Origin: Panopea generosa
Lineage: Eukaryota > Mollusca > Bivalvia > Adapedonta > Hiatellidae
Length of the DNA: 64,000 nucleotides
Direction: 5' to 3'
Assembly (NCBI GenBank): GCA_029582155.1
Contig: CM055899.1
Coordinates: 82,057,556-82,121,555 of the forward strand
Shown one piece after another: positions 23,943 to 61,100 of the stretch. The stretch's first letter is position 1. Each line of letters begins with the position of its first letter. The notes under the pieces are model-generated. The model saw nothing but the letters and a program-made list of their open reading frames with translations. It had not been told where the DNA came from and ran no database searches. The position numbers and the translations under genes were made by a program.

Positions 23943-25202
23943 CTAAGAACGATGGTTAGGCAAATTGCCCGTCTGTATATGACTGAAAGTTTGTTGAGAA
24001 ACAAGCGTTGAACTCCTAACAAACAAACAATAAATTACGCCCCTACAGTAGTGAAGAAGACTTCCATATTTGGTTTTTCCCGTCTGTCCGCCCGTCCATC
24101 CTAGCGTCAGGTCGGATTGTTTTGCCTTGCATATCTTGACCAGTGTCGTCACAGAGTCCAAATCAGTACTGTCTCGTTCTAAGTTCATCAAATCGTGTAC
24201 GTCACTCCAGTCACAAACAAGATTAAAAATATTCGCGCCTACATCAAGAGACAATCCTTCCAAACCATCAACATTGTATTTCTCGTTTGTGAGTTCTTTG
24301 ACATAGACACTCGTTACACTTTTGTCTCTTTCCCTCAACAATTCCTTGTCCCTATGACTATTGACCAAAGCTCCGTCCAAGATGTCGTTGCTTAAGAACC
24401 TGTAGTACTTTACTGGAATGATGTTCCGAATTCTAGTATACGGCGGTTTCGAAAACTCCTCGCACTCCACAACTAGGACTGGGATGAAATGGTCGCCTGT
24501 GTTCTGGATAAAAACTGCCCTGGAGTTGACACCGTCATCAGACAATGGTTTATATTTTAACCACTTCCAGCTTTCTCCATATCTCGAATACACATAAACA
24601 ATGGTTCGTGTTATTGTTGCAAATGCGTAAATCTCAACTTCAGTTCCCCATGTATCATCAGTGACTGACCGAGATAATGATCCACTGGATCACGCATAAC
24701 ACTAATCATTAAATTATCAATTTTCTTTCATGAACTCAACAAAGACACGTTAGAGTAATATATGCATTGATTGCACACCAAACACGATGTAGCTGAATGT
24801 TATAAACAGACAATTACCCTCTCCACGCATTAAAACAGTATATGTTGATTTTGCGCCGCGCGATATGTACCTGACCTGGCCAGTATTGTATGAATTCTTC
24901 ACCTTCGCATGAAATACTTTGGACATTTGTTCTTTCCAATCCTTATCCACAGGCTTAAATTGGACCGATTCATTGGCACTTTCGTTAATAACAGTTACAT
25001 TACCGACATCCGAAACCTTTCTCTTTTTAAGAGGGAGTTGACGCTCGTCCTTACTTTTTGTGTTCACATTTTGCTCCTCAAAACCTACATCATGCTTCGT
25101 TTCTGTCGCACACACTTTCTGAAAATCTCCTTCTGCTGCACTTCTATCATCTTCATCCTCGCCTGTCCTGTTAAACGTAAGTCTGCTTCCAATTAAAGAC
25201 AT
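23943..25202 (-). pseudogene. decayed OTU-type cysteine protease region
   Basis: The first block (25202-24750, 150 residues) has a basic patch, LPLKKRK at residues 57-63, and ends with MRGEGNCLF and FSYIVFGVQ. This is the start of an OTU deubiquitinase fold, with the nucleophile cysteine at residue 131. The usual DGNC is EGNC here, so the catalytic aspartate position is changed. The frame then stops, and fragments of the same fold continue in other frames (VFVEFMKEN; RDPVDHYLG) down to about 24610. The last block (to 23943) has TDDTWGTEVEIYAFAT and TGDHFIPVLV, the latter carrying the expected catalytic histidine. Stops and shifts rule out an intact protein. It lies directly downstream of integrase remains on the same strand with only tens of bases between, so it was probably the C-terminal part of one transposon-type polyprotein. 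Confidence 0.65.
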
Positions 25203-25959
25203 CTTAAGCTCTTCTAAGAAGTATATTCCTTTCCCACTTACTTTAGTAAGTTATGGTCCTTTCCACTTTGTTTCAATCTTCCCTGGTCGCCGACACAAAA
25301 CGTGTCCATCGATATGGAAAAGTAAAACTGTTTCTGTTTTGACTGTGCCGTTTTTATGTTTGATGATACATGCTAACTCTATGAAAGAGTCACATCTTTG
25401 CCTGAGTAATGTTTCATAGTCCTGAATTTCACCATCTTCCGTTTGTGGAATGTTTAATTAATTCAATGGGCAACCGAACTTGTCTACCATACACAAGATA
25501 AAAGGGGTTTTGCTTTGTAGACACATGTTTTGACGTTCTGTATGCAAATAATACACAGGGTAACTTAACATCCCAGTCATTATGGGCTGGGTTGACGTAG
25601 TTGATAAGCATGCTACATAAAGTAATATTAAAACTTTCCGTGTGACCCTCAGTCTGTGGATGATACGCTGATGCTATTCGGTGATCTATCCCAAATTATT
25701 GGCATATTCTGTTGTTCATTACTTTGCAAAATTCCCTCCCTTGGTCCAATATCAGAACCGTCGGGCATCCATGAGTAGCCATACATTTTTGTCATAACCT
25801 GTTCAGCTGATTTGTCCGGAATTGTCTCTATTTATCCATTTCGTGAAAAAGTCTGTAATAATCACGATGAACTTGTTACCTGAAAAGCAGATTAGAAAAA
25901 AGTTTTCAACTTGACACCAACTTTTACCAGCAACATTTATGCGCTCGTTCTTGCTAAGG

Positions 25960-49659: not shown

Positions 49660-51230
49660 TATGAAATTATTTGTTTGTTGATTTCATAATTGTTTTGGTT
49701 AGTGTATTTTTGTGGTAACACATTGTTTCAAAAGGGAGACAATTGCAGGATGCTTATGACAAGTATACATATATCAGTATTTTTTCCATAGCAGGAAGTA
49801 TCCGCACATAAAAATGCATAATTATTGGTAGACTGTTTTTTAAAGACAGTGCAGTGACACCATAAGATCTTTTTTTGAAAAGAATGCCCACCAATACAAT
49901 CATATGTTGAACTCTGTTTTTATCGAAAGTCACGGATCGAATTAAATATAAACATATAAGGTCATATAAAAGTAAAAACTATACAAATGGATTATATGTA
50001 TAATGTATTAACAAATATGAAAATAAATTTCCGATTGGAAACATAGCATTGGATGGGCATTGATGCTCGAGTGAATATAGTACCCCGTAAGCCGTGTTAT
50101 AGGATATAAGTAGTGTCGCATTACCCCTTCAGAACAGATCTGAATAAAACTGAGTTTTCCCCTCTATTTGCGTTCTGTATTTCCAGGCGATATTTTCATC
50201 GTAACTACATAATTCTTCCCATTGATCAATTCTATAGTTCTGTGGTTCTAGGCTGTAATGTAGAGTTTGTTAAGTTCACAGGGCACATATGAACCCATTT
50301 TCAGGTCAAGTGCCTCCCCCAAGATTACGAGTTACAATGGTGGTCTTGCTCCGTCATGCGTGTAAGTCCACCATAAAATATAATTGAACTACGTTGTCAT
50401 TTATTTGAAAAATGTATTTATTTGCAATTCATTACTAAAGATTATATGTCCGAATTGTTGACGAATACCAATGTAAATATTGTGCATATTATGTTTCGTC
50501 ATAATTATATAATTTATTAACTATATTTCAATAAATTTCAACTCGATTAAACTTTCATTACGGCAATACATCATTGCATATGAGTTTGTTTGTTGAAATA
50601 GTGCATTATGAAACAATTCTCGTGGTGTGTCATTGCCTTCTCCTAAGCAGTATTCTATTTCAACAAATTATTACGATGTTGTCTATGTGTCCAAGAAACC
50701 AGAAATAAAACCTTATAACATTATTGACTACGCCTTATTCAAGGGTTCTAACAGTATTGACTAAAGTAATTTTCTCAAGCCAGAGTTTGTTAATAATGAT
50801 TCTACATTATGACATTGGCATTCATTCGTGAATATATTTGAATCCCGATTGTTTTTGTCTTGTTATTCTGAAAATGAAATTGCCCATACACGTTGAAAGT
50901 TATGTCTTCATTAATCCATAGTTATCGATGTTTTGTTAGTTGACAGTTATAGAACCGCACACAGTCACAATACCAACAATGTGACAAAGTACAATGCTAC
51001 ATATTATGCCGACAATCGTAGGACTGCTGTCAAACAGTACTTTGAGCATTCGTTTAACATTGCTTTTTGTTTTAAAAAAATAATTGGAATTTATTGTAAA
51101 TTAATAAACCTGTAATCAAAATACCAAGATTTCCACGACATCTGTAATACCATAGTATGTGAATTTTAAAATATCAACCTGTACCGAATTAAAATACATG
51201 TTCGTTGCTATGGACACATGATAAATTCTT
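49660..51230. other. gene-free stretch
   Basis: No gene is recognised; the terminal part may contain the 3' untranslated region of the cGAS-like gene at 51233-52501, though no clear AATAAA was seen on the minus strand close to its stop. Confidence 0.45.
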
Positions 51231-51232
51231 TA

Positions 51233-52501
51233 TCATCCATCATGTTTCAGCTTTAAAAGATATCTGCGTCGCCTTAAATGTCTCACGAATGTGTCAAATG
51301 TGTCATAACAGCGTTCAAAGGAAATGTCCTCGTTATCTTCTTTCTTTTTAATATCTTCCAATTGTTTGATAATAGAATTGAGACCATTTATAATCGCGCC
51401 ACAATCATGACCGTCATACAAATCGGTTGAGACGTAATTCGACTTCATAAAAATACACCGAACATCCGTGTGTATTGCGTTACGATGCTGATAATCGGAA
51501 TTTTTGTATAAAGTTCCGAAGCTGGCTAACATAGCCATGATGATGCCACATGTACACCTAAGTACGTCACTGTCATCTCTACAAAATGCTGCATGGCGCA
51601 ACACAAATGTCTTTGTCATATACGATGAAAACACTTTGCTGTGTATTCTAATCTGAAGAATGTATTTAAGGAGTCTATAACATGTTTTATGGTTAACAGA
51701 CATGCCTCTTATCAAACTCACTTCTGTATTTGTGAAGGTAAACAGAAAGCATTTGTGAGCAAGTTTCCCTGGAATGACGAGATATTTATTATCTGAAATC
51801 AATCGATCGTTGTATGCCCTTAACTCAGGATCTAAATCCCCAGTGTTTATTCCGAGCAACTCGATAGCAGGTACAAGATCAACAGAAATATCTAACACCA
51901 GAGATTTTGCATTCAACGGTGTCCATCGCAATGCGAAAGTAGAAGCACTGCCTTCGGTCGGTTTATCTGCAGTGTCTATTGACAGAACTCCAGTTCGTCG
52001 TTTGACAGGCGAAAGTGATTTGAAGGCTTTGACTACGTGTTTATTGAAACTAAGATTTAAATCAAAATTCCCGAAGTAACCATTTGTTACACAAAACGAA
52101 AACATTTTTGTCACATTAGAGCTCAGTGCTCTGATATGTGCATGTATATGTTTATAAACATGTCTCAGTGACGTAGGCAATATGTTTGAGCTAACTATAG
52201 GATCTATATAGCAGTCTTCATTTTCAATCATCACTTTTTCTACTCCTATAGCACCTGGGGAAGACAAGTGTCTCAACACCAACAAAACGTCAAATTCGTT
52301 AGGCTCATTAATACTTGTACCTTCCGCCATACTTCCAGCTAAATACTTATGAGATATTTCGAATGCATGTTCTTGTTGTCCAATTCTTGCTGCAATAGTT
52401 TCAACAACCTCATGAACTGCTTCTTTTATATCTTTGACCTCAAAATCTGAACGTTGGTACTTCAGTTTTCTCTCATGGAGTTCATGCAAAAATGTGCTCA
52501 T
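51233..52501 (-). CDS. cGAS-like receptor / Mab-21 family nucleotidyltransferase
   Basis: This intact single-exon frame of 422 residues encodes a Mab-21/cGAS-like protein. Enzymes of this family sense foreign nucleic acid and make cyclic dinucleotides that activate STING; others in the family are non-catalytic. A helical N-terminus (about 1-50) leads to LAGSMAEGTS at 54-63, the nucleotide-binding G-S motif. NEFDVLLVL at 68-76 supplies acidic residues E69 and D71, and LDISVDLVPAIEL at 203-215 supplies the third acid, D208. A LAHKCFLFTFT segment and SYMTKTFVL (293-301) belong to the helical Mab-21 C-terminal lobe, and a basic RRRRYLLKLKHDG closes the protein. The cGAS-type zinc thumb (H-x5-C-C-x6-C) is not evident. 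Nothing is broken. The start is the first ATG of the frame and sits directly before the conserved helix. Activity is inferred from the complete acidic triad; ligand and product cannot be read from sequence. Confidence 0.85.
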   Translation of the reverse strand: MSTFLHELHERKLKYQRSDFEVKDIKEAVHEVVETIAARIGQQEHAFEISHKYLAGSMAEGTSINEPNEFDVLLVLRHLSSPGAIGVEKVMIENEDCYIDPIVSSNILPTSLRHVYKHIHAHIRALSSNVTKMFSFCVTNGYFGNFDLNLSFNKHVVKAFKSLSPVKRRTGVLSIDTADKPTEGSASTFALRWTPLNAKSLVLDISVDLVPAIELLGINTGDLDPELRAYNDRLISDNKYLVIPGKLAHKCFLFTFTNTEVSLIRGMSVNHKTCYRLLKYILQIRIHSKVFSSYMTKTFVLRHAAFCRDDSDVLRCTCGIIMAMLASFGTLYKNSDYQHRNAIHTDVRCIFMKSNYVSTDLYDGHDCGAIINGLNSIIKQLEDIKKKEDNEDISFERCYDTFDTFVRHLRRRRYLLKLKHDG

Positions 52502-53600
52502 TCTGATTCCCTTGATGTGTTACTTTAAATGAAAATTGATCTGAAAAATAAAATTGGATGGAACAGAATTAGGAAATGGTCATTTGAAAACATTATATTC
52601 TGCATATCTTAATTAGTACATGCACGTATCTTTACTGTGAATAAATATCGTACAATAGTATTTTTAAAACTATCATTCGTCGTAAGTATGAATTTGATGT
52701 AAGTATATTAAATACTATAGTTACAAAAAAACTCTCCTGACCAAGACGCTCATGAATGACCAGTATCAAAACATAAAGTTGTACAATAAATTACAATTGA
52801 ATTGTAAAGTGGTTCAACTACTAGTTTAAAAAATATAACTTACAGTTTTCCCAGATGCATTGACATATATATTCAAATAAAAGTGACGACAAAATAAACA
52901 TTACAGGTGCAAATATTGATCCATTCTTCAGATGCATTTGCTTCTTGCTATAACATTTTTATATCAGAAACACATCAAAATTTCGATTCTTTCTTAGTTA
53001 CCATTCAATTATTGGCATGCTTTTTGATTACCGTTAGGGACATAACCTAAAAATCAATATTCATAAAACATTTTTGTGGCAACGGCCTGTGTATATGTTT
53101 TAATGTTGATGCATGCACAAATATTTTCGGAAATACGAAGCTATGTTCGGAATGTTTGTGATACAATGTGTATCCTTGTTGTTTTTTTACTTGCAATTTG
53201 TCAAGATGTGATGAAATGAAAAACATAGTATGTGTTTCACAAATCAGAAATTTATGGGGGAAAATGAGAAAAATAACCAAAGCAATTATTCTTGGCAATT
53301 GTATATATAAAAGCAAACCATGTTCAAAACGACAATAAACGTAAAGTAATCTGTACGTGTAAACACAGGATAAAGGGTATAAAAATGTAGATGACTGCAT
53401 AAAACAGGAAATAGAAATATGCTTCAGTTCTTACAATTGTGATATCCCCACCCACTAAAGCACAAAGTGCAACATAAAAACCATGGCAATTCCCCCACTA
53501 CCCTGGACGTATCCATATTAATGTCGTATGCATGCTGAATGTTATTATGACCATTATCTTGAGTCTCGTACCAAATACAAATCATGTAATGTTTTTGACA
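52502..53600. other. upstream region of the cGAS-like gene
   Basis: This must hold its promoter and perhaps a 5' untranslated exon. No unambiguous TATA box or initiator could be assigned in the AT-rich sequence. The 117-codon minus-strand frame at 53047-53400 has no motif. Confidence 0.4.
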
Positions 53601-58159: not shown

Positions 58160-61100
58160 TTGCAGTAACCATCCCATTGAAAGCTATAGGAATTATATTG
58201 ATAAGCTTTTCAATTGATGGAGTTTATATTCAGAAAATGGTTTTGTTATATTTATGGGCGACTTCAATGCAACCTGTTCAAAATTCCAAAGTAATAGCAG
58301 AGATCAATCATTCACACAGTTCTTGAATGGTACTTATATGATCTCTGCTAATACATTGGATATGTGTACCGGTGCTTCATCATCCTTTGTATCCTACGAT
58401 GGAAAGTGTGAATCGCTTATTGATTTCATCATTTTGCCAGTTGAGAAAACAGATTGTATTACTCATTGTGTAATAGTAGAAGACGATTTTCTAAATGTTT
58501 CAAGACATAAACCTATTAAATGTAGTCTGAGTATGCCTTCGACTGGTTATAATGACGATGTGTCGAATGTAAATATTTCGCAATCATATAATATTAACTG
58601 GAAAAAAGTAAGACAAGTTGATATTACATCCTATCAAAACATGCTCAATGCATCAGAAGATTTGATAAAAGCACAAAATTGTACGTTAAAATGTCCTGCT
58701 GAAATTGATAATATGTATAAAATTTTAAGCGAGACTGTTGTTTCTTGCTCAGATAAGTGTTTTCGCAAGACGAGATTTAAGCACTTTTTAAAACCGTATT
58801 GGAATTCAGAGTTATCTAATTTACATAAAGTCATGTTAGAAAAACGGAAAATCTGGATTCAAAATGATAGACCAAGAGATCGATGACATTATTCTTATAA
58901 AAGTTATAAAACAGCAAAATGTTATTTCAGAAAAACACACAGGTATTTTGCCAATGAGTATTTAAAAAATCTTGATGAAGAAATTGAAACAACCGCTGAA
59001 CTTGATAAAGAACAATTTTGGAAATTAGTGAATTTGCGAAGAAAACGGTCATCAAGTAGAGCAGGCGCTGAAATAAAATTCAATGGCGTAATGTATAGGG
59101 ATAACGACAGTATTACAGAGCAATGGAAACACTATTTTGAATTGTTATATACCCCGTCAATTGATAGTAATTATGATAATATTTGGAAAGCTTCTGTTGG
59201 CGAAAAAATAAATTCTGTTATATCGCAGTCTAGATTTTGTATTGATGACGTCATTAATGTGTCACAGGAAGAAGTAAGAACCTCAATTGCATCGTGTAAA
59301 CGCGGCAAAGCCAGTGGGATCGATAATGTTTCTTACGAACATTACATTTTTGGCGGAAATATAGTTATTAATACACTAGCAAAACTGTATACAGCTATGC
59401 TGTCCCAAAGTTACATTCCACCAAACATGAACAAAGGCGTCATTATAACATTACATAAAGGCGGAGGTAAACGTAAGGATGATCCCAATAATTATAGAGC
59501 AATCACATTAACTCCTACTGCTCTTAAACTATATGGAAATATACTTCTTTCACGTTCCAAACAAAAACTTCTTTCTAATTTAAGTAACCAACAAGGGGGG
59601 TTTCAGGAAGGACTCGGTTGTTTGATGACTTCCTTCGCACTAAAAGAATGTATTTTATATGGCAGAGAGCACAAGAGCAAGGTTTTTGTTTGCTTTTTAG
59701 ATGCTCGTCAAGCTTTTGATAGGGTGTGGCATAATGGACTTATGCTCAAATTGTTTGATAGCGGCGTTACAAACTATATATTTATGTTATTCTTTAATAT
59801 GTATCGTAATATGTAAAGCTGCGTACGAAACCAAGGGTCGATTTCTGAGTGGATCAATGTTCTTCAAGGAACAAGACAAGGGGGTAAAAGTTCATCAATA
59901 TTATATCTTCTTTTCATTGATGGTCTGATAAAAGACATAGAAAGTAGCGGTCTTGGGTTGTATATTTTTAACTTGAAGGTTGGTACCCCTACCGTTGCGG
60001 ATGATATGGTTCTTGTATCGTATTCAAAGTCAGGTTTAGACAAAATGCTAGATATTTGCTACAAATATTCCATAAAATGGAGATATGATTATAATCCATT
60101 AAAATGCGCTATTGTTGTTTTTAATGAATCCAAACATAACTTTGATAAAAACTGCAGATCATGGAAACTAGGATCTAGTAACATTATTTATGAAACAGAA
60201 AATTATACACATCTAGGAATTATATGTGACAAATATATGTGTATTAGTGATCATATTCGACAGTCAAATAATAAGTTACGTGGACTTTTTTTAAGTCTTA
60301 TTAATAGTGGCTTACATCCGCATGGTCTTAATCCCTTGACAACATTAACAATATATAAGTCAATCGTTATACCAAAATCCCTATATGGTTGTGAATTATG
60401 GAATTCATTAACCAAATCAAATATTATACAACTAGAACGAGGACATAGAATCTGTATAAAATTTATCCAAAATATCCCACAATATGTAAATACGGATTTT
60501 GCTTTAAGCTTTATTAGTGTAACTTCACTTGAAACGGAAATCGACTACAGGAAGCTACAATTCTTTGGTCAATTATGCAGACTCCCGAATAAGTATATTG
60601 CTAAGCAATTATTTGTTAATCGTCTGTTAAGATATCTTAGTGATGATAAACAAACATTAGGTTTTATTCCTGACATCTATAGAATATTAACGAAGTATGA
60701 TCTATATAATTATTTGGTTAATTATTCTAAAACGGCAATATTTCCATCTAAATATGCATGGAAATATATTCTTAGACAAAGAGTGCTAATACATTACTCA
60801 AATACAATGTTAATGAGGTTAGGTGACAAGATGGGTCCATCATATGTCATGAATATGTTTAGCATAAATAGGCCTTGCTTCCTATGGCAATTAAGTAGGA
60901 AAAATCAGTATGTAAAAGCACAGTGTTTTACAGCAGTGTCACTACTAAGTAAACTGCAATCGTTTACAGCTGTACAGCTATGTAGCAAATGTAATACGCT
61001 TGTAGATAATTAAGTACTACATATTGTTCATTTTTGTATTGCAAACACTGTCGAAAGAAATAAGCTTTGGGACGCAGTTATAACGACTTGTGGTCTTCAG

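Follow-up and report, generated by a model that had tools for sequence, protein, structure and literature searches.

The stretch analysed here, referred to as the window, comprises 64,000 bases of a contig (C6) of the bivalve Panopea generosa. At 51233..52501 on its minus strand lies a coding sequence of 422 amino acids for a Mab-21/cGAS-like nucleotidyltransferase of the cGAS-like receptor (cGLR) type, as judged from its frame, from family and fold searches and from the ratio of nonsynonymous to synonymous substitution (dN/dS). In other animals, cGLRs make an alarm molecule on infection. We consider it likely that the window gene encodes a functional receptor of this kind, and it is best described as an intact, constrained and probably catalytic cGLR within a known expanded immune family. 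The basis for this reading is an intact frame, the predicted fold, a retained catalytic triad together with the donor-nucleotide residues, purifying selection, paralogues, and weak-scoring STING-like exons in the same genome, from which we infer catalysis, a cyclic product, a nucleic-acid or other ligand and an immune role.

The frame runs from ATG to stop, as an earlier first-pass annotation had reported without giving the strand, and the three motifs it had singled out (LAGSMAEG, NEFDVLLVL and ISVDLVPAIEL) are all found in the translation, with E69, D71 and D208 correctly numbered. No open stretch in the window is longer than this one, which measures 428 codons from stop to stop; in 30 random sequences of equal length generated with the same first-order chain, the longest measured 115-198 codons, which rules out a chance frame. 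A chance origin is further excluded because an open copy of 87% identity exists on another contig (C14), with a dN/dS of 0.27 between the two. A pyrimidine-rich sequence at 52541..52553, 39 nt before the ATG on the minus strand, was read by eye as a probable splice acceptor of the 5' untranslated region (UTR), and its TTTTCAG is retained in the C14 copy. Since an in-frame TAA (52520-52522, minus strand) separates the putative acceptor from the ATG, translation is likely to start at the ATG on the 52501 side, and an intron is probable in the 5' UTR. On the other side of the gene, 137 nt past the stop codon, the AATAAA at 51090..51095 (minus strand) is a possible poly(A) signal found by simple pattern, one of four AATAAA-type matches within 1500 nt.

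Fold, relatives and selection

When solved structures were searched by sequence, cGAS was found on top, represented by a designed variant (7lz3, E 7.7e-4) and the mouse wild-type protein (4o6a, 0.0014). Profiles of the relatives raised the best cGAS match to 2.5e-8 and then to 4.9e-12, with the solved cGLR1 chains 8gjy (3.6e-9) and 8gjw (1.1e-7) following cGAS, and the profile alignment to cGAS consists of two stretches, one in the N-terminal core and one in the C-terminal helix bundle. Fold searches with the predicted structure yielded cGAS throughout among the best 50 matches listed in each; the structural match covers residues 1-407, at 19-21% identity over the structural alignments. That the gene might instead encode an oligonucleotide cyclase or a non-cyclic, OAS-like 2'-5' polymerase of the same fold seems highly improbable to us, as the nearest folds and sequences are those of cGAS. 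What speaks for such an enzyme is that the product is unreadable from sequence, that a weak NCBIfam match to a CBASS cyclase was obtained (E 0.0015, 17.8 bits vs a cut-off of 200), and that the cyclic products of some cGLRs described so far are unidentified (PMC9980059, a preprint).

Among public proteins, the nearest relative, P0001, comes from another source than the window genome and is 50% identical over 99% of the length, followed by P0002 (34% over 73%) and more distant others. P0001 has the same motif and the same four histidine and cysteine residues discussed below, and in the tree it joins the window gene and the C14 copy at a support of 100/100. Four relatives were recovered by the first protein search and ten and eleven by the profile searches, and so few relatives indicate that the searched collection is thin for the family of the window gene. 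Two public relatives, P0007 and P0008, share this nucleotidyltransferase and extend it by a long hydrophobic tail, which by eye appears to be a multi-pass membrane region. A scan of viral contigs for relatives gave 17 pattern matches, none of which were confirmed, and within the 64-kb window tblastn found no second related stretch at E below 0.05.

The host assembly (1.47 Gb, 39 contigs) contains at least 33 stretches that match the window gene, not all of them separate genes, the closest being the open copy on C14. A block at 51157..52733 (minus strand) is duplicated there at 88.1% identity. This homology extends past the coding sequence into non-coding DNA upstream and takes in the sequence of the splice acceptor, which makes the copy the outcome of a genomic duplication and rules out a retrocopy. 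Between the two genes dN is 0.060 and dS is 0.221, and the bootstrap 95% range of their ratio is 0.18-0.41 (1 of 500 replicates at 0.5 or above, 0 of 500 at 1 or above). With a ratio clearly below 0.5, both copies, rather than one alone, are probably under constraint. Change is faster towards the C-terminus, where codons 331-420 show a dN of 0.117 and a dS of 0.344, compared with 0.045 and 0.194 before them. Several relatives in the genome bear stops and the window is rich in repeats, both of which would suit a recent or decaying, unexpressed duplicate with a young and unmaintained frame. However, the low dN/dS, the conserved splice acceptor sequence and the persistence of the frame over nearly its entire length in the more distant P0001 make such a duplicate quite improbable.

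The catalytic centre and the published cGLR definition

Sequence and alignment place the nucleotidyltransferase GS motif at G56-S57 (52331..52336), the first two triad acids in E69-F70-D71 (52289..52297) and the third acid at D208 (51878..51880), all on the minus strand. On the donor side, human cGAS (hscGAS) uses E383, K414, Y436 and K439, all of which have retained equivalents (4/4): E260 (51722..51724), K279 (51665..51667), and Y294 and K297 within the SYxxK stretch S293-Y294-M-T-K297 (51611..51625), likewise on the minus strand, with S293 directly before Y294. The numbering of cGAS and MAB21L1 residues used throughout, as well as the donor-nucleotide roles, are those of PMC4897736. In the proposed mechanism, a ligand would bind the spine and C-lobe surface of the protein, and its binding would set E69, D71 and D208 around two metal ions, while the donor NTP would be held by E260, K279, S293/Y294 and K297. 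The cyclic nucleotide product would then signal via STING-type receptors of the host.

The earlier annotation took the complete triad as the sign of a probably catalytic copy. It is indeed complete, but it is also common in the genome, being complete in 31 of 32 aligned rows; these are no census, as nine of them were selected, out of 40 Mab-21 loci retrieved, with an eye to the motif or to MAB21L1-like character. (Omitted from the alignment and tree were L003, L014-L018, L020, L022-L025, P0010, P0011 and 31 of the 40 PF03281 loci.) The sole exception is L028, the best Pfam Mab-21 match of the genome (155 bits), which we take to be MAB21L1-like and which has N in the third-acid column where the window gene has D208. 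MAB21L1 itself has Q169 at this position (PMC4897736), and the window protein with its D208 differs in this from the MAB21L1/2 proteins, candidates for a non-catalytic kind with a non-acidic third position. Among the relatives of the window gene, the triad is present in 14 of 14 stop-free frames that cover all of its positions (L001, L002, L004-L009, L011-L013 and L019-L021), and L017 and L018 keep it across two separate frames each. Of the stop-bearing relatives, L014 has lost G56, S57 and D208 and L016 has lost G56 and E69; L015 keeps E69 and D71, its third acid being uncovered. Regular-expression counts of the third acid in the 40 PF03281 loci were dropped, as the pattern missed D208 of the window gene itself, and so was the first part of the expression (28 of 40 loci), due to evident chance matches that included L028, L030 and L066.

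A published definition of cGLRs asks for the motif h[QT]GS [X8-20] [DE]h[DE]h [X50-90] h[DE]h, for homology in both lobes and for predicted structural homology (PMC9980059). In the window protein, the acid pair E69-F-D71-V lies 11 residues after G56-S57 and the third acid stands in V207-D208-L, as in that motif, and both the homology in the two lobes and the predicted structural homology to cGLRs and CD-NTases are present. Like animal cGLRs as described there, it has a predicted two-lobed nucleotidyltransferase fold with GS and an acidic triad and a helix bundle in the C-lobe, has no added domain, and is multi-copy in its genome.

Several observations weigh against a working cGLR. Firstly, Pfam Mab-21 (PF03281) matches residues 59-216 with an E of 6.6e-5 and 23.5 bits, just below the cut-off of 24.1, which P0001 passes at 25.7 bits. 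Secondly, the protein departs from the published motif in having L54-A55 where Q or T should precede GS, and a spacing of 134 residues, instead of 50-90, from the acid pair to the third acid (PMC9980059). Thirdly, the guanine contacts T211, R376, S378 and S380 of vertebrate cGAS correspond to A55, L253, T255 and T257, as located by counting from GS and E260. With these contacts replaced, guanine recognition is not preserved and the product need not be 2'3'-cGAMP. Fourthly, triad retention alone is no proof of catalysis, since the stop-bearing L003 and L010 retain the triad as well. Lastly, the evidence for a STING-type receptor consists of exon fragments found at a loosened threshold, at which 0 of 14 control genomes gave a signal; of the ten matches, only the best (E 0.0016) exceeds the cut-off of 27, with 27.3 bits. 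At 1e-3, a search of the genome for the STING domain had given no match, and the controls were silent too. Eight of the ten weak matches to the STING ligand domain lie on one strand within about 270 kb (C14:45948893-46215214) and cover different parts of the profile, two of them containing stops, which suggests a tandem STING array in the host.

The failures of the motif look non-disqualifying, because two QGS relatives in the same genome, L051 and L055, have spacings of 135 and 117, and because the site before the acid pair is KSGS in the solved cGLR1 chain 8gjw and LVGS in 7lz3, a cGAS described in its title as designed and constitutively active. According to a review, designed cGAS variants of this sort work without dsDNA (PMC12934549). 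The window protein is therefore a predicted cGLR in fold and likely a working one, outside the strict published motif. The absence of [QT] before GS and the non-conserved guanine contacts would also fit a Mab-21-fold scaffold or signalling adaptor whose acids serve to bind nucleotides or metal and which makes no cyclic dinucleotide, and shrimp Mab21 proteins are reported to activate IKK-epsilon outside the canonical nucleic-acid sensing paradigm (PMC12928593). We regard an adaptor as unlikely, since the triad and donor set persist alongside a variable acceptor site, the pattern that a change of substrate would leave in an enzyme, and since the MAB21L1-like gene of the same genome is without the third acid. 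The prediction of a probably catalytic cGLR is thus upheld by the cGAS and cGLR matches, the triad and donor residues, and the constraint. Its ligand may be a nucleic acid or something else. Of the 15 enzymes characterised in PMC9980059, two oyster ones answer dsDNA and seven from diverse species dsRNA, and the nucleic-acid-sensing cGLRs had a pI above 8.5, compared with a calculated 8.4 for the window protein, whose N-terminal 50 residues are net-acidic.

The zinc-thumb region

In the window protein, E260 and K279 are 19 residues apart, as opposed to 31 between E383 and K414 of hscGAS and 17 between E238 and K255 of MAB21L1 (PMC4897736). The protein therefore has no zinc thumb, which agrees with the earlier remark that none is evident. 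In this it is unlike vertebrate cGAS and like MAB21L1 and MAB21L2, which also have a Mab-21 domain and no zinc thumb (PMC4897736). The alignment points to four candidate metal ligands, all on the minus strand: H271 (51689..51691), H303-x3-C307 (51581..51595) and C316 (51554..51556). H271 falls where cGAS has its zinc thumb with the thumb ligands, and the profile alignment shows the cGAS insertion there.

All four residues are present in 22 of the 32 aligned rows, each of the other ten having one at most; as judged among these rows, the set is specific to the branch. Outside the alignment, all four are found in L023 and in the stop-bearing L014 (seven stops) and L003 (three stops); L020 has H271, H303 and C307 with position 316 uncovered, L022 has the latter three of the set with a gap at 271, and L017 and L018 have H271, their coverage ending at 279. 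C274 is conserved more widely than the set, being I in L019 and L020 and V in L023, and both L019 and L023 retain the four residues despite this change. H271 lies at the start of the predicted MKY helix (269-285), the helix 293-306 has H303 at its end and C307 right behind it, and C316 is at the start of the helix 313-333. A four-ligand metal site is plausible, because these helix ends would converge in an antiparallel hairpin, and the four residues may form one.

We put forward as a tentative proposal, itself more doubtful than not, that in this branch a compact metal site with four ligands, H271/H303/C307/C316, has taken the place of the cGAS zinc thumb. Such a site would anchor the MKY helix, at its start, to the end of the following helix and to the beginning of the third, and the ligand-binding platform would thereby be built differently from that of cGAS. 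Together with the altered guanine pocket, a remodelled platform could give the sensor another ligand and another product. Against a metal site, the four residues are among 17 nearly invariant columns that stand beside 19 invariant ones, and they may instead belong to a helix-packing core, as the rows are related and other positions are equally conserved. On the tree, the set requires two changes, due to L021, a long branch that lacks it and falls inside; a single set-bearing group is not rejected (p-AU 0.178), and none of 500 shuffles gave clustering as low as observed. However, the trait itself defined the group, and most of its rows had been recovered through similarity to the window protein, so that the clustering shows no more than that these residues follow descent. 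The words "zinc" and "ribbon" are absent from the main text of PMC9980059, to which this limited literature check refers, and the set is not claimed to be unpublished.

A branch that keeps the catalytic centre, alters the guanine pocket, is without the zinc thumb and shares the H/H/C/C set would allow a direct test of whether remodelling of the zinc-thumb region gives rise to new ligands and products. The two close copies, one on C6 and one on C14, have open frames and are jointly constrained, and they lend themselves to comparison; the H/H/C/C set is the part of the branch most worth following. A different arrangement is seen in L036 and L039, two adjacent and closely similar Mab-21 genes on host contig C8, in which 47 residues separate the E and K positions and the thumb region nonetheless contains few cysteines or histidines.

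The Mab-21 expansion and other contents of the window

The genome contains at least 93 matches to Pfam Mab-21, and C6 alone accounts for 45, of all kinds; the list is incomplete, as the window gene itself is not among the 93. Of the 40 loci fetched, 13 are on C6, and eight of these (L031, L046, L050, L053, L056, L057, L058 and L065) share a motif of the FGSx(C/S/R)EGTT type with SDxD after it, and the frames that carry it are mostly 710-760 codons long. Several, such as L050, L057 and L065, are about 715 codons long and read FGSxCEGTTTPGLxSDxD. Judged by sequence, the largest Mab-21 expansion seen is of another subfamily than that of the window gene. The description of the gene as part of an expanding immune family is supported by the evidence, and it holds with the reservation that this largest expansion, on C6, lies elsewhere in the family. 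As some bivalves have more than 200 cGLRs (PMC9980059), an expanding bivalve family is already known.

In the window as a whole, Rfam gave no match at gathering scores. Two adjoining long frames at 23943-25250 (minus strand) had no Pfam or NCBIfam match, and the second of them, which was the one searched against PDB, had no significant match there. One of the pair contains a GEGNCLF motif, which we take to recall OTU proteases. The earlier annotation called the gene the best-preserved host gene in the window, which may hold as judged from the frames scanned: of ten other long window frames scanned with Pfam at E <=0.01, matches were obtained only in three successive frames at 58218-61013 (plus strand), which make up a LINE-type element with a reverse transcriptase and an endonuclease, the latter below its cut-off. 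With this element and tandem arrays over 6754 of the 64,000 bases, the setting of the gene was fairly called repeat-dense.
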